From: Poseidonibacter ostreae
Lineage (GTDB): Bacteria > Campylobacterota > Campylobacteria > Campylobacterales > Arcobacteraceae
Direction of reading: 5' to 3'
Assembly: GCF_009208075.1 (NCBI RefSeq)
Contig: NZ_WFKJ01000023.1
Coordinates: forward strand, 1 to 45,051
Length of the DNA: 45,051 nt
Shown here: in pieces, positions 10,984-25,207 of the stretch
Numbering within the stretch: the first letter of the stretch is position 1
How the letters are laid out: each line of letters opens with the position of its first letter
The notes under the pieces: generated by a model
What the model was told of the DNA's origin: nothing
The model's database searches: none
Seen by the model: only the letters and a program-made list of their open reading frames with translations
Translations under genes and position numbers: made by a program

Positions 10984-12012
10984 ATGGAAAGAATAGTAGA
11001 AGTTGAATCTGTATCTTTTGAAGAAGATAATAATGAGATAAGTTTAAGACCCTCTTCTTGGGATGATTACATTGGTCAAGAAAAGATAAAAAGAAATTTA
11101 AAAGTTTTTATTGAAGCTTCTAAAAAAAGAAATGAAGCTTTAGACCATATATTATTCTATGGACCTCCTGGACTTGGAAAAACAACTATTTCGTATTTAA
11201 TATCAAATGAAATGAATACAAATATTAAAATTACAGCAGGACCTATGATTGAAAAATCAGGAGATTTAGCTGCAATTTTAACAAACTTAGAAGAAGGTGA
11301 TATTTTATTTATTGATGAAATACATAGATTATCACCTGCTGTTGAAGAGATACTTTATCCTGCAATGGAAGATTATAGATTAGATATCATAATTGGTTCA
11401 GGACCTGCTGCACAAACTGTTAAAATTGATTTACCAAGATTTACACTAATTGGAGCAACAACAAGAGCAGGAATGCTTTCAAATCCTTTACGTGAACGGT
11501 TTGGAATGCACTTTAGAATGCAATTTTATAATCATCAAGAATTAGCAAAGATCATACAAATTGCATCAGAAAAACTAAATAAATATTGTCAAGATGATGC
11601 AGCAGATGAAATTTCAAGAAGAAGTAGAGGAACTCCAAGGGTTGCATTAAGACTTCTAAGACGTGTAAGAGATTTTGCTGAAGTAGAAAATGAAGAGAGT
11701 ATAAATTTAGCAAGATGTAAATTTGCACTAGATGAACTAGGAGTAAATGAAAGTGGTTTTGATGAAATGGACATAAACCTTCTTGAACTTCTAGTTTCAA
11801 ATAAAGGCAAACCTATGGGACTTTCAACTATGGCTGCCGCACTTAGTGAAGATGAGGGTACAATTGAAGATGCAATTGAACCATACTTACTTGCAAATGG
11901 TTTTATAGAAAGAACTGCAAGAGGAAGAGTTGCTTCAATAAAAACTTATGAAATGTTTAGACTTTCATATCCAGCAAGCGAAAAATTAGATCAGGAAGGT
12001 AGTTTATTTTGA
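10984..12012 (+). CDS. ruvB: Holliday junction branch migration helicase RuvB
   Basis: RuvB is the AAA+ motor that, with RuvA, drives branch migration of Holliday junctions. The 342-residue protein has Walker A GPPGLGKT (60-67), Walker B with FIDEIHR (109-115), the sensor segment GATTRAG and arginine-finger region NPLRERFGM, and the C-terminal winged helix ([18 protein letters not shown]). Length is normal. It follows panB by 3 bases; its TGA overlaps the TTG start of the next gene, which suggests translational coupling. ruvA and ruvC are not in the window. Confidence 0.97.
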
Positions 12013-13076
12013 AACCAGTTTACTTTTTAATCTTCATAGCAGCTATTACAATATTTTTTATGGTGGAGCTATTTAGTCCATTTTTAAAAGCAATGTTTGT
12101 TGCCCTACTTTTAGCAGTTGCTACAAACTCTTTAACACTGTTTCTAGAGAATAGATTAAAAAGTAGAACTTTATCTTCAGTTATTATGACAGTTACACTT
12201 GCAGGAATATTTTTTATTCCAGTAATGTATTGTATTTTTGCCTTTGCTAACTTCTTTAATCATGTAGATAAGCAAGCTTTATTTGGACTTTTTGATAATA
12301 TTAAATTCTGGGTTGAAAATATTTCAGATGATTTCTTATTTTTAAAAGAACAATTAACTCAAATCTTAGCAAAAATAGATGTAAGAGAAGTTGTTCAAAA
12401 CATACTATCAGTTGGTGCTTACTTAGGTAAAAACTCTGCTAGATTTATGATTGATATGGTTATGATTTTAATATTTTTCTTTTTCTTTACACTTTATGCA
12501 ACAGGTTTATCTACGTTTGTAAAAGGATTATTACCAATAAAAAAAGATGATTCCATTACTCTTTTTTATGAATCATCAAATGTAATGACAGTAGTTTTAT
12601 ACTCTATATTAATTACAGCGATTTTTCAAGGCTTTTTATTTGGATTCTTTCTAACATTTTATAGATATGATGGATTATTACTTGGTGTTTTATATGGTTT
12701 TGCATCATTAATTCCTGTTATTGGAGGAATTATTATGTGGTTACCTGTAGTAATTTATGAAGCAATGACAGGTTCAATTACTAATGCTATTGTAATAGCA
12801 GTTTATTCAATACTAATGATTTCAGTTTTTGCTGATACTTTTGCTAAACCAATTATCATAAAATATATAAATCAAAAAGTTGTAAAAACTCCTACAAAGG
12901 TAAATGAGATTTTAATATTCTTTTCAATTGTAGCTGGACTTTCAACATTTGGATTTTGGGGGATGATTATTGGACCTGCGATGGTGACATTTTTCATATC
13001 AATTATGCATTTATTAAAAAAATATACTGAAGATAATAAAGAAAATTTATCTTACTATAAAAAGGATGAATCCTAA
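12009..13076 (+). CDS. AI-2E family (PerM/TqsA-like) membrane transporter
   Basis: A 355-residue polytopic inner-membrane protein of the AI-2E transporter/PerM superfamily. It has about eight hydrophobic segments, with two near the N-terminus (residues 1-40), one at about 57-85, then a soluble stretch (90-140), and the conserved C-terminal group containing [19 protein letters not shown] and the [12 protein letters not shown] motif. Family members export autoinducer-2 or act in Na+/H+ exchange; the substrate here is unknown. The TTG start overlaps the ruvB stop in the sequence TTGA. The panB-ruvB-permease grouping looks like an operon of unrelated functions. Confidence 0.85.
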
Positions 13077-13088
13077 AAAGATTCATCC
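13064..13088. terminator. Hairpin between convergent genes
   Basis: GGATGAATC (13064-13072), loop CTAAAAA, GATTCATCC (13080-13088). It spans the stop codon of the permease gene. The T-run is weak. Confidence 0.5.
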
Positions 13089-13122: not shown

Positions 13123-13869
13123 TTATTCTTCTCCACTTTCTCTTTCACCTTGGAACGTTGAAATTCCATAATCTAAGTTTGCAACAGATTTATATCCTAA
13201 GTCAAGCATAATTCTTTGACAATAAGCAGATCTACTACCACTTAAACAGTAAACAATAACAGGTGTATCTTTTTGGTCATCAACTCTCTCAAGTGCTTGG
13301 TAAAATGATGTTGTAGGAACTAAATAATCTGTTCCTTTAATTCTTGTACCTACCCATTCCATCCACTCTCTTGTATCAATAAGATTGAACTTTACAAAAC
13401 CTAAGTCTCGTGCTTCTAATAATGATTCTAGTTCTTGAGAATTTACTTCTTGTTTTAATAATAACTGCTCACACTCTTCTTTAGTAATTCCTCTTGAATG
13501 AGTTGCGATTGCATCATGTAAATCTTCTTCTTTTGCACTTTTATCTGCAAATTCAGGTGTACAGAAAATTCCACAGTGACAATTTCCAGTTTCTGGAATC
13601 TCTTTTTCAAGAGCTGGTTTACATGGACATAACCTATTATCAGCTGCTTTTTGTTCCTCTTTAATCTCACCAATAACCATAAAACATGGACAATACCTTT
13701 TTCCATATATCATTTTATTTCTAGCAAGTCCCATTTGAATTGATTCATTTACTTCATCATTTGGATTATATGCAAAGTTAAAATTTTTAACAACTTTATC
13801 TGTAAATTGTTTTGTTAATTCAAATTCAGTTTGAAACTCTTCACTATTTGTATCTATTTTTTTTATCAT
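13123..13869 (-). CDS. Ferredoxin:thioredoxin reductase catalytic subunit fused to rhodanese
   Basis: A 248-residue two-domain protein. Residues 1-115 match the catalytic (beta) subunit of ferredoxin:thioredoxin reductase: CPC (60-62), CPC (81-83), CHC (97-99) and a further Cys103. In the known enzyme such cysteines bind a 4Fe-4S cluster and form the redox-active disulfide that reduces thioredoxin. Residues about 150-245 form a rhodanese domain with NLIDTREW and the active-site loop CLSGSRS (catalytic Cys208), which carries persulfide sulfur. No FTR variable (alpha) subunit is nearby, as in other bacterial FTR-like proteins. The fusion suggests electron delivery from ferredoxin to a persulfide or disulfide. 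Cytoplasmic, single gene. Confidence 0.88.
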   Translation of the reverse strand: MIKKIDTNSEEFQTEFELTKQFTDKVVKNFNFAYNPNDEVNESIQMGLARNKMIYGKRYCPCFMVIGEIKEEQKAADNRLCPCKPALEKEIPETGNCHCGIFCTPEFADKSAKEEDLHDAIATHSRGITKEECEQLLLKQEVNSQELESLLEARDLGFVKFNLIDTREWMEWVGTRIKGTDYLVPTTSFYQALERVDDQKDTPVIVYCLSGSRSAYCQRIMLDLGYKSVANLDYGISTFQGERESGEE

Positions 13870-13931: not shown

Positions 13932-14156
13932 TTATGATTTTTTAAAAGTTCTAATATATAAATTTTCAACTTTAGTTCTAGCCCAAGGAGTCTTTCGTAA
14001 AAACTTCAAAGATGACTTTATAGATGGGTTATTATAAAAACAGTTTATCTTTATTCTTTTATCTAACTCTTCCCATCCAAACTCATCAACTAATTCATTT
14101 AGAATCATTTCTAGTTTTATTCCATGTAAGGGATTATTTTCATTATTACCAGCCAT
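13932..14156 (-). CDS. VF530 family DNA-binding protein (DUF2132)
   Basis: A 74-residue protein that fits the VF530 family throughout: [24 protein letters not shown], then [21 protein letters not shown] and a basic tail. The family is small and helical; DNA binding was proposed from structure and the biological role is unknown. It follows aat by 16 bases on the same strand and is probably co-transcribed with it. Start ATG 14156 is preceded by AAAGGAAAA. Confidence 0.85.
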
Positions 14157-19447: not shown

Positions 19448-20578
19448 ATGACTTCTGCAATAGATTTATCTAAATTAACAGCAAACGATGATTTAACACC
19501 GGTTCTTGGTGGATACTGGCCTGGTATTCAAATTTATTACCCACCAATTAAATTCAATCCACTTGATGGTACATACGAAAGTATGGAGCAAGCTAAATTA
19601 AGATTACAAAAACATGCTTATAAAACAAAAGCACATACTGTATTATTTGATTTAGAAGATGGTTGTAGACAAAAAGCTATGTCAAGAGAGTTATTAATTC
19701 AAGAACTTCCAAAGTTTCCTGAAAGAAATTTCCAAATAGCTGTGAGAATAAATCCATTTAGAACAGATGAGTATGAAGAAGATTTAAAAATGTTAAAACA
19801 AATTCACCAATATGTGGATTCTATTGTTTTAGCAAAAGCTGGAGAAGTTTATGGTTCTGCTGAGATTAGAGATTTATCTTCTTGGTTAGTTTCAATTGGA
19901 AGTAATTTAACTATTCAACCAATTATTGAGCATCCAAAGTCTCTTCAAATTGCTGATAGATTAATGGAACATTCAACTGTTAAACATGTTGTATTTGGTA
20001 TCCATGATTTCTCTAAAGCAATGGCTTATAAAATCACACCACAAGGTTGGATTGATGAGTTAGAAACATTCTTTAACATTCTTACTATGGAAGCAAGAGT
20101 TAAAGGTAAAGGTGTTATTGGTGGAGTTGAAGTTTTATTAACACCACACTCATTACCAGATCACTGTGTTGAAAAGAAAGATATTAGAAGATGGTTAGAT
20201 CTTCATGGTGATGAAGCATCAAGACATGTTTATGCTCATGCACAAAGAGAATATGCAATGGGATTAACTGGTAAACAAGTTATTACTCCAAATCATATTA
20301 ATGTATGTAAGGTTGCATTTACACCATCTCCTAAAGAGATCGCAAAAGATGTAGAAATCTTAAAAGAAGCTATTAAAGCTGATGCATTATTATCTGGTGC
20401 TATTAGATATAAAGGTGAAATGTTAGATCCACCAATGTTTGGTAAATCTTTACAAAATATTTTAAGAGCTTATGCACTTAGAAGTTTAGAAAAAGAAGAT
20501 GAAATTTTTGCATTATCAGTTCTTAATAAAATGCCAATACATACATTTAAAGAAAACTGGCCTTACGGTCAAATTTAA
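19448..20578 (+). CDS. CitE/HpcH-family CoA-ester lyase 1
   Basis: A 376-residue TIM-barrel enzyme of the HpcH/HpaI aldolase-citrate lyase beta family. Catalytic positions look intact: FDLEDG (67-72), an Arg in AVRINPF (Arg100), Lys130, metal-binding Glu161 in IIEHPKSL and metal-binding Asp187 in FGIHDFSKAM. Such enzymes cleave or form CoA esters such as malyl-CoA, methylmalyl-CoA or citramalyl-CoA, with acetyl- or propionyl-CoA and glyoxylate or pyruvate as partners. It is longer than CitE (about 290) and has a distinct N-terminus (GGYWPGIQIYYPPIKF). It leads an operon and is 15 bases upstream of the ligase-lyase fusion. Substrate cannot be decided from sequence. Confidence 0.8.
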   Translation: MTSAIDLSKLTANDDLTPVLGGYWPGIQIYYPPIKFNPLDGTYESMEQAKLRLQKHAYKTKAHTVLFDLEDGCRQKAMSRELLIQELPKFPERNFQIAVRINPFRTDEYEEDLKMLKQIHQYVDSIVLAKAGEVYGSAEIRDLSSWLVSIGSNLTIQPIIEHPKSLQIADRLMEHSTVKHVVFGIHDFSKAMAYKITPQGWIDELETFFNILTMEARVKGKGVIGGVEVLLTPHSLPDHCVEKKDIRRWLDLHGDEASRHVYAHAQREYAMGLTGKQVITPNHINVCKVAFTPSPKEIAKDVEILKEAIKADALLSGAIRYKGEMLDPPMFGKSLQNILRAYALRSLEKEDEIFALSVLNKMPIHTFKENWPYGQI

Positions 20579-20593
20579 TAAGGAGTTATAACA

Positions 20594-23113
20594 ATGAGTT
20601 CAAATATAACAATTGAAGTACCAGAATACTTAAACATTGGTGTTGCTTGTACATCTAAACATGTAGGAACAGCTAAAGAAAACAGCACTGCTATGATTAT
20701 TGAAGATGATAATTTAGGTACTGATGAAATTTCTTATAAAGAATTAGCAGAGAAATCTGATCAAATTTGTAACTTCTTAACTGGTTTAGGATTTGAAGCA
20801 AGAGATAGAGTTTTAGTATGTTTAAAAAACTCACTTGCTTACCCTATTTCATTTTTTGGAGCGATTAAAGCTGGAATTATTGCAGTACCTACTTCAACTT
20901 TATTATCAGGTTCTGAAGTTAAATACTTAGCAGAAGATTCACAAGCAAGTGCAATTGTATTATCAGCTTCTATGTATGATAACTTAGTACCATATTTAGA
21001 AAACCTTGATAATTTAAAAACAATTATTGTTGCTGGAATTGATTCAACGGAAGGGTTAAATATTCCAAAAGGAATGAAAGTTTACTCATTTAGTGAAATT
21101 TTAGAAACAACAGATAAAACACCAAATCATTATAAATCAAAATCAGGTGAACCTGCATATTTAGTATATACTTCAGGGACTACTGGTTATCCAAAAGGTG
21201 TATTACATTCACATAGATCATTAGTAGGAAGAACTCCTGCAACTGAGTATTGGTTTGATTTTAAAGAGAATGATAGAATCATGCACTCTGGTAAATTTAA
21301 CTGGACTTATGTATTAGGTTCTGCATTAATGGACCCATTATTTAATGGTCATACTGTTATTGCTTACGAAGGTGGTAATGATGCTGGAACATGGATTGAA
21401 TTAATTAAAAAACATAAATGTACTATCTTTATAGGCGTTCCAACTATTTATAGACAAATTATTCAAAAAACTGAATTTACAGCTGCTGATTGTCCATCAT
21501 TAAGATATTGTATGTCTGCTGGTGAGCACTTATCTGATGAAATGATTGGATTATGGAGAGATAGATTTAAGCAAGATATTTTTGAAGCAATTGGAATGAG
21601 TGAGTGTTCTTACTATATTTCACATTCAAAAAATAATCCAATTAGACCTGGAAGTGCAGGTTTTGTTCAACCAGGACATACTGTAAAATTACTTGACCCT
21701 GATACTTTAGAAGAAGTAGCAGATGGTGAAGAAGGTATGATTTCTATTGGTGAAGATGATCCAGGTTTATTCTTAGAGTACTGGCAATTAGAAGAAGAGA
21801 CTAGAAAAGCTAAGCATAATGGTTACTTCTTTACAGGTGATTACGCTAAAAGAGATGAAGATGGTTATATCTGGTTCATTGGTAGAAAAGATGATATTAT
21901 TAATACATTCGGATTTAGAGTATCTCCACACGAAATTGAAAGAGTTGTAAAAACTCATGATCTAGTTGCAGATTGTGTTGCTTTTGGTTTAGAAATTGGA
22001 AAAGATAAGGTAATTGTTGCAATTGCTGTAATTGGACATGAAGAATTAAGCGCTGAACAAGAAGCTGAGGTATTAGCATTTTCTCAAGCAAATCTAGCTA
22101 AATATAAAGCACCTAAAACTATTTTTGGAATGAGCGATTATCCAAGAACTAAAAATGGTAAAGTTTTAAGAAAACAATTAGTTAAAAACTTACATGATAT
22201 TTACCATTCAAAAGAGACTGGTGAAGAGATTAAAGAGTACAAAGCTAGAAGATCTATGTTATTTGTACCATCTTATAATAGACACAATGTTGAAAAAGCA
22301 AAAACTGTTTTAGCAGATTCTGTTATCTTTGATTTAGAAGCTATTCTTTCTGAGCAAAGAGATGTTGCTAGAAATACAATTAGAGATGTTTATAAAGAGA
22401 GTGGTTCAAAATTTGGTGATTCAGAAAGAATTCTAAGAATTAATAACTTAGGAAGCGAAGATATTGCAAAAGATTTAGAACTAGCAGGTGAGATTGAAAT
22501 CGATGGTTTATTATTCTCAAAGATTGAAACTGGAGCTCAAGTACTTGAAGCAGTTAAATTAATTGAAGAAGTAAATCCTGAATTATCTTTAATGATTATG
22601 ATTGAAACACCATTATCAGTTCTAAATATTCAAGAAATTTGTTCAGCAAGTCCAAAAGTTGAAGTTATTGTTGTAGGTTCTAATAAACTTGCAAATAGAC
22701 TTCAAATTGATATTAAAAAAGGTTCAAAAGCAATGTTTAATTACCTTTCGCAAATTGCACTTGCTGCAAAAGCGTATGGTCAAACAGTTATTGATGGTCC
22801 TCACTTTGATATCCATGATGAGTTTGCTTGTGAAGATTCAACTAAAGATGCATTTAACTTAGGATTTGATGGTAAGTCATTAGTTCACCCAATTCAAATT
22901 GAATATATTAATGATATCTTTACTCCTAAACAAGTTGAAGTTGAAGATTATGAAGTTATGATTAACAAATATGAAGCTGCTAAAAAAGATGGTAAGGAAG
23001 TAATTTATCATAATGATAGATTAGTTGATGGTTCAAGAATTAAATGGGCTAAGAAAATGATTACATTATATGAAACATATAAATCATTAGGTCAAAACCT
23101 ATTTAATAAATAA
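20594..23113 (+). CDS. Acyl-CoA synthetase fused to a degenerate CitE-like lyase domain
   Basis: An 839-residue fusion. Residues about 20-545 are an AMP-forming acyl-CoA ligase (ANL superfamily) with the P-loop TSGTTGYPKG (193-202), a GMSEC-type motif, a GDYAKRDEDGYIWFIGRKDD hinge and the catalytic lysine in RTKNGK (Lys523). It looks closest to benzoate- or medium-chain acyl-CoA ligases, so an organic acid is activated with ATP. Residues about 552-835 are a CitE-like barrel starting RRSMLFVPSYNRHN. Here Glu671 in MIETP is kept, but LEDA is LEAI (Ala583) and the metal-site G-x-E-D-L is GSNKL (Lys698 for Asp). Thus lyase activity is doubtful. A linker of only some 10-20 residues joins them. The reading frame is continuous. 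AAGGAG precedes the ATG. Confidence 0.85.
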   Translation: MSSNITIEVPEYLNIGVACTSKHVGTAKENSTAMIIEDDNLGTDEISYKELAEKSDQICNFLTGLGFEARDRVLVCLKNSLAYPISFFGAIKAGIIAVPTSTLLSGSEVKYLAEDSQASAIVLSASMYDNLVPYLENLDNLKTIIVAGIDSTEGLNIPKGMKVYSFSEILETTDKTPNHYKSKSGEPAYLVYTSGTTGYPKGVLHSHRSLVGRTPATEYWFDFKENDRIMHSGKFNWTYVLGSALMDPLFNGHTVIAYEGGNDAGTWIELIKKHKCTIFIGVPTIYRQIIQKTEFTAADCPSLRYCMSAGEHLSDEMIGLWRDRFKQDIFEAIGMSECSYYISHSKNNPIRPGSAGFVQPGHTVKLLDPDTLEEVADGEEGMISIGEDDPGLFLEYWQLEEETRKAKHNGYFFTGDYAKRDEDGYIWFIGRKDDIINTFGFRVSPHEIERVVKTHDLVADCVAFGLEIGKDKVIVAIAVIGHEELSAEQEAEVLAFSQANLAKYKAPKTIFGMSDYPRTKNGKVLRKQLVKNLHDIYHSKETGEEIKEYKARRSMLFVPSYNRHNVEKAKTVLADSVIFDLEAILSEQRDVARNTIRDVYKESGSKFGDSERILRINNLGSEDIAKDLELAGEIEIDGLLFSKIETGAQVLEAVKLIEEVNPELSLMIMIETPLSVLNIQEICSASPKVEVIVVGSNKLANRLQIDIKKGSKAMFNYLSQIALAAKAYGQTVIDGPHFDIHDEFACEDSTKDAFNLGFDGKSLVHPIQIEYINDIFTPKQVEVEDYEVMINKYEAAKKDGKEVIYHNDRLVDGSRIKWAKKMITLYETYKSLGQNLFNK

Positions 23114-23123
23114 GGAGATTATA

Positions 23124-24182
23124 TTGTCTAAAATTAACGTTGGAAACTTTTTCGAAGATTTTTCAATTGGTCAAAAAATAGTACACCCACTACCTAGAAC
23201 AATTAGTGAAGGTGATGTATCTTTATACATCGCTTTCACTGGTTCTAGATTTGCACTAAACTCATCTGATTTAGTTGCAAAAGAAATGGGATATGAAAAA
23301 AGACCAGTTGATGATACATTAATGTTCCACTTAACATTTGGTAAATCTGTTCAAGATGTATCTTTAAATGCAATTGCTAACTTAGGTTATGCAGAGATTT
23401 CATTCCCTAATCCAACATATGTTGGAGATACGGTATCTATGACATCTACTGTAATTGGATTAAAAGAAAATTCAAATGGTAAAAGTGGAGTTGTTTATGT
23501 TCACTCTATTGGATATAACCAGAATAATGAAGAAGTATTAAACTTCAAAAGATGGGTTATGGTTCATAAAAAAGATAAAGGAACTTCTACAGGTATTAAT
23601 GAAGTTCCAACTTTTGAAAAAACTACACCTATTGCTGATGTGATTAACCTTCCAGAAATCAAGTGTGTAAATACTGATTCAACTGGTGGAAAATACTTCT
23701 TTGAAGATTATGAAGCTGGTGAGAGATTAAATCATCCAGAAGGTATTACAGTTGATAATAGTGATCATACACTTGCAACTAAGTTATACCAAAACAATGC
23801 AAAAGTACACTTCAATGACCATATGATGAAAAGCTCACCTATGGGTCAAAGACTTATGTATGGTGGTATTGTTATTTCAATGGCAAGAGCATTATCATTT
23901 AATGGTTTTCAAAATGCACAATGGATCTATGCAATAAATAGTGGAGCACATGCAAACCCTACTTATGCAGGTGATACAATTTATGCATATACTGAAGTTA
24001 TTGAAACTATTGACCATAAAAGAGAAGATATTGGATTATTAAGATTAAGAACAGTTGCTGTTACTAATCAAAAATCTGATGAAATATCTAATCCTAAAGG
24101 TGAAGATGGAAAGTACTTAAAGAATGTAGTACTTGATTTAGATTACACTGTTGTTATTCCTAAAAGAAAAACAGCTAAATAA
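23124..24182 (+). CDS. Double-hotdog MaoC-type hydratase, mesaconyl-CoA hydratase-like
   Basis: A 352-residue protein with two MaoC-like hotdog domains (about 8-150 and 188-345), the size and layout of mesaconyl-CoA hydratases of the ethylmalonyl-CoA and 3-hydroxypropionate pathways. The C-terminal half has the catalytic hydratase motif, with Asp214 in NSDH and His229 in KVHFND. The N-terminal half has the same framework (ISEGDVSLYIAFTGSRFALN) but Ala where His is expected, so one active site per chain is likely. It would hydrate an enoyl-CoA such as mesaconyl- or itaconyl-CoA to a hydroxyacyl-CoA that the neighbouring lyases can split. It starts at TTG 23124 with AAGGAG upstream, 10 bases after the fusion gene. 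Confidence 0.82.
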   Translation: MSKINVGNFFEDFSIGQKIVHPLPRTISEGDVSLYIAFTGSRFALNSSDLVAKEMGYEKRPVDDTLMFHLTFGKSVQDVSLNAIANLGYAEISFPNPTYVGDTVSMTSTVIGLKENSNGKSGVVYVHSIGYNQNNEEVLNFKRWVMVHKKDKGTSTGINEVPTFEKTTPIADVINLPEIKCVNTDSTGGKYFFEDYEAGERLNHPEGITVDNSDHTLATKLYQNNAKVHFNDHMMKSSPMGQRLMYGGIVISMARALSFNGFQNAQWIYAINSGAHANPTYAGDTIYAYTEVIETIDHKREDIGLLRLRTVAVTNQKSDEISNPKGEDGKYLKNVVLDLDYTVVIPKRKTAK

Positions 24183-24223
24183 ACAAAGAATAAAAAAATT
24201 AAATTTAATAAAAGGAAAATATT

Positions 24224-25207
24224 ATGACACACCCTAACGAAGCCCTATTTGGTTCTGGAGACAACTTACCAATTATCCCATCTTGTGAGCACTTTGCAGG
24301 TAGCGAAAAGCTAATCCTAAAAGGTTTTTCTATGCAAGAAAAATTAGGACCTGTATTTGATATTACTTGTGATTGTGAAGATGGAGCTGAAACTGGTAAA
24401 GAAGTTGAGCATGCTGAAATGATTGTAAGAGTTGTTAACTCTGATGCTAATAAATATGCAATGGCAGGAACAAGAATCCATGATTTTGATCATCCAGATT
24501 GGAGACAAGATATTGATATTTTAGTACCAGGTGCTGGTGAAAAATTAGCATATATTACTATTCCTAAATCAACTTCTTATGAAGATGCTAAAACTCAAGT
24601 TGAATATATTCAAGAAGCAGCTAAAAAAGCTGGAATTTCAAGAGAAATTCCAATTCACGTTTTAATTGAAACACATGGTGCTTTAATGGATGTTGAAAAA
24701 ACTGCAACTTTACCATGGGTACAAGTTCTTGACTTTGGTTTAATGGACTTTGTTTCTGGTTACCAAGGAGCAATTCCAGCTTCAAACATGAGATCTCCAG
24801 GTCAATTTGATCACAGATTAATTGGTGCTGCTAAAGCAAAAGTTGTTCAAGCTGCTTTACAAAACCATATTATTCCGTGTCACAATGTTACACTTGATTT
24901 AAAAAACCCATACCAAACTTATAAAGATGCTGAAAAAGCAAGAAATGAGTTCGGATTCTTAAGAATGTGGTCAATTTATCCAACACAAGTGCAAGCTATT
25001 GTTGATGCAATGAAACCAGACTTTACAGAATTAGAAGCTGCGCAAAATATTTTAATTGCTGCACAAGATGCTGAGTGGGGACCAATCCAGTATGATGGTG
25101 AGTTACACGATAGAGCAACTTACAGATATTTCTGGGAATTAGTTCAAAGAGCAAACTTCTCTGGAACAAAATTACAAGATAGAGTTCAAGACAGATTCTT
25201 CTCTTAA
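24224..25207 (+). CDS. CitE/HpcH-family CoA-ester lyase 2
   Basis: A 327-residue lyase of the same superfamily as lyase 1 but only distantly similar to it. Catalytic positions are intact: CDCEDG (49-54), Arg84, Lys115, metal Glu149 in VLIETHG and metal Asp175 in FGLMDFVSG. The family includes malyl-CoA, beta-methylmalyl-CoA and citramalyl-CoA lyases. It is the last gene of the operon, 41 bases after the hydratase with its own AAAGGA site, and is closed by a strong terminator. With the hydratase it could convert mesaconyl-CoA to propionyl-CoA plus glyoxylate, or itaconyl-CoA to acetyl-CoA plus pyruvate, or run in the reverse direction. Which is true is open. Confidence 0.82.
   Translation: MTHPNEALFGSGDNLPIIPSCEHFAGSEKLILKGFSMQEKLGPVFDITCDCEDGAETGKEVEHAEMIVRVVNSDANKYAMAGTRIHDFDHPDWRQDIDILVPGAGEKLAYITIPKSTSYEDAKTQVEYIQEAAKKAGISREIPIHVLIETHGALMDVEKTATLPWVQVLDFGLMDFVSGYQGAIPASNMRSPGQFDHRLIGAAKAKVVQAALQNHIIPCHNVTLDLKNPYQTYKDAEKARNEFGFLRMWSIYPTQVQAIVDAMKPDFTELEAAQNILIAAQDAEWGPIQYDGELHDRATYRYFWELVQRANFSGTKLQDRVQDRFFS

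Follow-up and report, generated by a model that had tools for sequence, protein, structure and literature searches.

The genome of Poseidonibacter ostreae encodes a protein in which a ferredoxin:thioredoxin reductase (FTR) catalytic domain is joined to a rhodanese domain within a single chain, and this fusion is a real, conserved protein and not an artefact. By analogy with known fusion enzymes, it is tentatively proposed that the protein functions as a soluble, self-contained ferredoxin-dependent persulfide reductase, and it may be an uncharacterized enzyme for the release of sulfide from sulfur bound to protein. The gene lies in a stretch of 45,051 nucleotides (the window), for which a preliminary description, made from the sequence alone, had suggested that ferredoxin electrons act through the 4Fe-4S/disulfide site on a persulfide held by the rhodanese.

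Persulfide-handling reductase-rhodanese fusions that use flavin and NAD(P)H are already known, as are FTR-type domains fused to glutaredoxin. If the proposal is correct, a member that draws on ferredoxin would link sulfane-sulfur chemistry directly to the pool of low-potential electrons in its hosts, which include many vent, sediment, and marine Campylobacterota. The fusion is common in free-living Campylobacter relatives and, as a small soluble protein, is suited to testing this ferredoxin/sulfane-sulfur link. There are precedents for both halves and for both kinds of fusion, while the pairing of FTR with rhodanese has no apparent match in the open-licence literature, where no paper on such a fusion was found; central FTR papers outside that literature may mention the architecture.

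Gene and Domain Architecture

The features of the gene and its immediate surroundings are collected in Table 1. The extent and length of the reading frame given in the preliminary description hold, and the coding strand is the minus strand, the plus strand being full of stops. The frame contains no internal stop, and the sequence AGGA is located 8 nucleotides 5' of the start codon. The terminator-like hairpin is flanked by the fusion gene and a convergent gene (12009-13076); a hairpin search of the region found two such structures, compared with 0.2 in shuffled sequences. The short open reading frame directly upstream encodes what we take to be a VF530-like protein.

Table 1. Coordinates of the fusion gene, its domains, and adjacent features in the window
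Feature	Position	Strand	Remarks
Whole gene, FTR catalytic domain + rhodanese, 248 aa	13123..13869	-	ATG at 13869, TAA at low end
FTR catalytic domain (FeThRed_B, PF02943), residues 16-116	13522..13824	-	E 1.2e-36
Cysteine centre C60-P-C62, C81-P-C83, C97-H-C99, with additional C103	13561..13692	-	Alignment
Flexible linker (predicted), residues 117-124	13498..13521	-	pLDDT under 50
Rhodanese domain (PF00581), residues 146-240	13150..13434	-	E 6e-13
Rhodanese active loop C208-L-S-G-S-R-S, six residues	13228..13248	-	Alignment
Terminator-like hairpin	13064..13088	-	11-pair stem, then TTTTT; past the stop of the fusion gene
74-aa ORF directly upstream of the fusion gene	13932..14156	-	Same strand; cluster in 19/110 loci

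Both halves of the protein are recognized by Pfam well over cut-off, with 125.4 bits for PF02943 (cut-off 22) and 49.6 bits for PF00581 (cut-off 22.2). Up to an E-value of 1, FeThRed_B and Rhodanese are the only Pfam domains returned, and there is no FAD/NAD(P)H pyridine-nucleotide reductase domain among them. Similarly, sequence searches of solved structures matched the FTR half and the rhodanese half separately.

The translation places CPC (60-62), CPC (81-83), CHC (97-99), and Cys208, within YCLSGSRS, where the preliminary description had located them. The 110 fusion loci that were collected correspond to 104 distinct proteins, and in an alignment of these Campylobacterota fusions the residues Cys60, Cys62, Cys81, Cys83, Cys97, Cys99, and Cys208 are present in 104/104, as are Tyr207, Gly211, Ser212, Arg213, and Ser214. 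The six-residue C208-x4-R213 loop is likewise found in 104/104; a loop of six residues is typical of sulfurtransferases, while one of seven residues is characteristic of Cdc25-like phosphatases and arsenate reductases. Cys133 and Cys217 are kept in 68% and 71% of the distinct fusions, respectively, and this loss of the other cysteines alongside an invariant Cys208 is expected of a one-Cys persulfide carrier.

Alignment to FTR points to Cys62 and Cys99 as the redox-active pair of the FTR half, as plant FTR numbering presumably equates the redox-active cysteines with these two residues. The CxU motifs found in double-selenoprotein FTRs are in line with this assignment. Among NCBIfam models, the FTR half scores best against NF041072, the FtrB double-selenoprotein model, with 63.8 bits where the cut-off is 160; this model covers the FTR half only, and the fusion contains neither selenocysteine nor an in-frame UGA. 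FtrB double selenoproteins are listed with a CxU motif and two selenocysteines (PMC13188914), and the two selenocysteines are said to replace redox-active cysteines (PMC2398784), whose equivalents in the fusion would be Cys62 and Cys99. An additional cysteine, Cys103 (13561-13563), follows four residues past Cys99 in a CHCxxxC arrangement. It is present in 101/104 distinct fusions and in every stand-alone and split FTR compared, and non-Cys residues align with it in the plant and Methanosarcina acetivorans enzymes.

Predicted Structure and Fold Relatives

The AlphaFold model of the whole chain (80 aligned sequences) has a mean pLDDT of 89 and a pTM of 0.51. Due to this pTM and the low pLDDT of the linker, the mutual placement of the domains is not fixed by the model, which predicts two confident, sound domains on a flexible tether. 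Since the fold matches of the whole model are dominated by the rhodanese half, the FTR half was also modelled separately, giving a pLDDT of 93 and a pTM of 0.84. A fold search with this model (residues 1-122) returned ten entries above Z 9, all of which are FTR or FDR chains (Z 9.7-10.9), and the next entry follows at Z 3.4.

The rhodanese half matches 3tp9 (Z 16.3), 3ict (Z 14.6), 5ve4 (Z 14.2), 5ve3 (Z 13.9), 3nta (Z 13.4), 6pfz (Z 12.4), and 8a56 (Z 12.1). The rhodaneses of known persulfide reductases are among these matches, and the relatives of the FTR half are all FTR/FDR enzymes; both results support part of the initial interpretation. Against the rhodanese half, plain rhodaneses such as GlpE (Z 14.5) are on a par with the tails of persulfide enzymes; consequently, the fold alone picks no function.

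Comparison with Known Enzymes

The glutaredoxin/ferredoxin disulfide reductase of Desulfotalea psychrophila (7pwe; Z 10.8) likewise combines an FTR-type domain with a thiol-handling domain. In 7pwe the glutaredoxin named in the entry title precedes the FTR half, which is matched at 84-180, whereas in the fusion the rhodanese lies behind the FTR half. The FDR of M. acetivorans (4tpu; Z 9.7) possesses an FTR-type half with CPC, CPC, and CxC motifs (C-Y-C in 4tpu) and is not known to need the plant variable subunit. The molecule name given for 4tpu is 'Rubredoxin', and this enzyme presumably has a rubredoxin part where the fusion has its rhodanese. The catalytic subunit of plant and cyanobacterial FTR (1dj7, 2pu9, 7c2b; Z 10.6-10.8) shares six cysteines with the fusion. 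Unlike the fusion, this subunit lacks Cys103, reduces thioredoxins, and pairs with a variable subunit, which was found in 0/61 genomes of the P. ostreae family.

With respect to the other half, the NAD(P)H persulfide and CoA-persulfide reductases (3ict, CoADR-RHD; 3nta and 6pfz, persulfide reductases; 8a56, CoA-persulfide reductase) consist of a reductase followed by a single-Cys rhodanese, as in the fusion. In contrast to these flavin, pyridine-nucleotide reductases, the fusion is a predicted Fe-S enzyme and a presumed ferredoxin user. A rhodanese tail on a persulfide enzyme is also found in 5ve3, a persulfide dioxygenase-rhodanese, and in 3tp9, a beta-lactamase-fold/rhodanese protein that we take to be a persulfide enzyme. 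The partner of the rhodanese in these two proteins is an oxidizing non-haem-iron domain, whereas the partner in the fusion is reducing.

Distribution in Campylobacterota

The preliminary description had called for a survey of the fusion in Campylobacterota, and the full-length fusion was found in 142/397 Campylobacterota genomes, with the seven catalytic cysteines invariant among the distinct proteins as described above; any match was found in 186/397. Fusion status was judged by hand (best E at most 1e-60; some genomes by best E alone). Two genomes (G365, G372) were excluded from the fusion count as their match is a split pair, and in two others (G086, G287) one TAG inside the match was taken as the gene end. 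When genome contigs of bacteria and archaea were scanned, the titles of the best 80 of 98 related loci indicated Campylobacterota, some mislabelled bins aside, and the hosts named among these 80 include Arcobacter-like genera, Sulfurospirillum, Sulfurovum, Nitratifractor, and Hydrogenimonas. One locus (L045) is titled Helicobacter pylori PMSS1 MAG and contains the fusion with neighbours as in Arcobacter-labelled bins, so this title is probably wrong. No fusion was found in the viral contigs searched, and a plasmid search returned one Sulfurovum split pair and one Legionella rhodanese.

PF02943 occurs in 162/394 Campylobacterota genomes, once in the P. ostreae genome, and in 2/14 control genomes (Synechococcus and M. 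acetivorans). The variable subunit (PF02941, FeThRed_A) was found in 0/61 genomes of the family, P. ostreae included, while the Synechococcus control was positive. The initial statement that the chain occurs without a variable subunit is thereby upheld.

Fused, Split, and Stand-Alone Modules

The FTR and rhodanese modules also occur as separate genes side by side, ordered as in the fusion, namely in five genomes (L141-L144, L160) and on a Sulfurovum mangrovi plasmid, and the catalytic Cys is kept in all five split genome rhodaneses. The adjacency and shared order of the split modules point to a shared job. A stand-alone FTR is located directly before the fusion in L155, L156, and L159 (family f5, which we guess to be Nautilia-like) and in L145. 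Stand-alone FTRs without a partner rhodanese occur in Campylobacterota as well, suggesting that the FTR half has other substrates. A lone rhodanese, 29-43% identical to the rhodanese half of the fusion, is found in eight genomes outside the PF02943 hits (one of which, G395, was outside the PF02943 draw), indicating that the rhodanese works there without an attached FTR. In five loci (L196, L197, L198, L199, L201) this lone rhodanese (~126-137 aa) lies between presumed argG and rplI-hslV-hslU genes, and in other genomes the fused gene takes the position of the lone rhodanese upstream of rplI-hslV-hslU. Within one phylum the modules are found fused, split, and singly, which argues for a common task where the two occur together and also indicates that neither half strictly needs the fusion.

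Trees were built quickly from short alignments, in which one in three fusions of the main alignment was retained. The FTR halves of 36/39 fusions form one clade, and the remaining three, from family f5, fall elsewhere on long branches. The FTRs of the split pairs group with stand-alone FTRs, while the rhodaneses of the split pairs group with fused rhodaneses (supports 85-89). These trees are compatible with either one or two fusion events.

Genomic Neighbourhood and Sulfur Metabolism

Across loci, the fused gene is found in several unrelated housekeeping contexts, with neighbours that we take to be aat, ruvB, and panB; rplI, hslV, and hslU; ATP synthase/Tol genes; and others. No conserved sulfur neighbours of the fused gene stood out in the 110 loci, the clusters of which were annotated by eye. 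Among 105 loci with both neighbours, a same-strand ORF (mechanical ORFs of 70 aa or more) lies within 100 bp upstream in 52 and downstream in 20, and 41 have neither. As the contexts are unrelated and no sulfur operon stood out, the gene neighbourhood was dropped as a functional clue.

A match between the fusion and sulfur metabolism had been put forward as a check in the preliminary description, and the match that was found is loose. Among 394 genomes, 77 contain both SoxB and the fusion, 63 the fusion only, 12 SoxB only, and 242 neither. This association is strongly non-random but is weak evidence because the overlap follows clade; 63/140 fusion genomes are without SoxB, and conserved sulfur neighbours are lacking. 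Together, the SoxB counts and the neighbour survey argue against a role confined to sulfur oxidation. TIGR03385 (CoA-disulfide reductase) scored over cut-off in 0/394 genomes and in 0/14 controls, and PADLOC returned no hits.

In 4/5 genome loci with a split pair, and on the S. mangrovi plasmid, the pair is located several genes upstream of a molybdoenzyme cluster (4Fe-4S protein, NrfD-like protein, 1110-aa molybdoenzyme, TorD) that runs in the same direction; the fifth locus (L204) lies ~8 kb from soxZ and soxB. The molybdoenzyme context was also dropped as a clue, as dapE and other genes intervene, the loci are related, and none of the curated NCBIfam models is matched over cut-off by the 1110-aa enzyme. 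In Sulfurovum-like genomes (L203, 3389-10379, and similar), the same twin-arginine enzyme accompanies 4Fe-4S, NrfD-like, and TorD-like genes.

The P. ostreae genome itself contains SoxB, 17 rhodanese stretches, and 15 thioredoxin-family stretches over cut-off. It also contains two 2-oxoacid:acceptor oxidoreductase gamma-domain hits, which make a supply of ferredoxin likely, and two NADPH thioredoxin reductases over cut-off, which make a general thioredoxin-reductase role for the fusion unnecessary.

Proposed Function and Alternatives

In the proposed reaction, ferredoxin that has been reduced by a 2-oxoacid:acceptor oxidoreductase would reduce the [4Fe-4S]/disulfide centre of the FTR half. Thiosulfate, polysulfide, or a low-molecular-weight persulfide would donate sulfane sulfur to Cys208 to form Cys208-SSH, and the linker would let Cys208 swing to the Cys62/Cys99 site. 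Finally, this site would attack the outer sulfur of Cys208-SSH, and sulfide would be released. The likely use of such a reaction is the control of reactive sulfane sulfur together with sulfide supply, rather than energy-yielding sulfur oxidation. It is conceivable, if somewhat doubtful, that ferredoxin, and not NAD(P)H or thioredoxin, reduces protein-bound persulfide by means of a single chain that combines a 4Fe-4S/disulfide centre with a rhodanese, which would open to Campylobacterota a low-potential way of turning sulfane sulfur into sulfide, possibly with Cys103 as an extra sulfur/thiol relay beside the active Cys99.

The analogues behind this proposal are the FTR-type reductase with a thiol partner (7pwe) and the reductases with a rhodanese tail (Npsr, CoAPR). 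In CoAPR, persulfidation in cells is reported for the rhodanese Cys, which has been proposed to carry sulfur to the reductase across a distance (PMC9405070); for AfNpsr, a preference for persulfide and polysulfide over disulfides is reported (PMC7969121). The presence of both Pfam domains over cut-off, the seven invariant cysteines, the six-residue rhodanese loop, the persulfide enzymes among the fold relatives of the rhodanese half, the floppy linker, the two NADPH thioredoxin reductases, the split gene pairs, and the gamma-domain hits count for a persulfide reductase. Counted against it are the pTM of 0.51 with no domain-domain placement, the GlpE-like match, the loose tracking of SoxB, the lack of sulfur neighbours, the lone rhodaneses, the stand-alone FTRs, and the 17 rhodanese stretches. 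The interpretation in the preliminary description is partly supported, namely as to the conserved two-domain chain, the intact centres, the missing variable subunit, and the spread across Campylobacterota; the match with sulfur metabolism is loose only.

Alternatively, the FTR half may reduce an external thiol protein (thioredoxin or similar) and so regenerate the sulfur acceptor of the rhodanese, which would then be a second activity. This is unlikely on the present evidence. The FTR half does resemble thioredoxin-reducing FTRs in fold, thioredoxin-family stretches are numerous in the genome, stand-alone FTRs exist in the phylum, and the M. acetivorans FDR is reported to reduce a thioredoxin (PMC6262447). 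However, the genome already has its two NADPH thioredoxin reductases, and the neighbour survey brought out no conserved thioredoxin gene beside the fusion. An assignment as a biosynthetic sulfur donor, in which the persulfide sulfur of the rhodanese would go to an acceptor in Fe-S cluster, tRNA, or cofactor synthesis and FTR electrons would make sulfide on site, is more doubtful still. The housekeeping-like neighbours and the retention of the fusion in genomes with and without SoxB would suit such a donor, but no gene for Fe-S, tRNA-thiolation, or cofactor functions was conspicuous among the neighbours of the fused gene, and the fusion is absent from 255/397 Campylobacterota genomes, which also need such clusters.

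There is little probability of a repair or protection role, in which the FTR half would do no more than keep Cys208 reduced after oxidation and the protein would be a rhodanese carrying its own reductase. The intact FTR cysteines in all fusions and the flexible linker count for this role; against it, PF02943 occurs once in the genome, so that none of its 16 other rhodanese stretches is joined to an FTR domain. It is equally improbable that the halves act on unrelated substrates and that the fusion is historical. Lone rhodaneses in FTR-less genomes and lone FTRs elsewhere are consistent with such independence, whereas the joint conservation of the seven catalytic cysteines in all 104 proteins and the adjacent split pairs in the same order speak against it.

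Other Features of the Window

A run of CoA-ester-type genes is located at 19448-25207 of the window and appears to form an unusual CoA-ester module. It encodes two proteins that we take to be citrate-lyase/malyl-CoA-lyase-like, a presumably MaoC-like protein, and an 839-aa chain that seems to resemble an acyl-CoA ligase joined to another citrate-lyase/malyl-CoA-lyase-like lyase.
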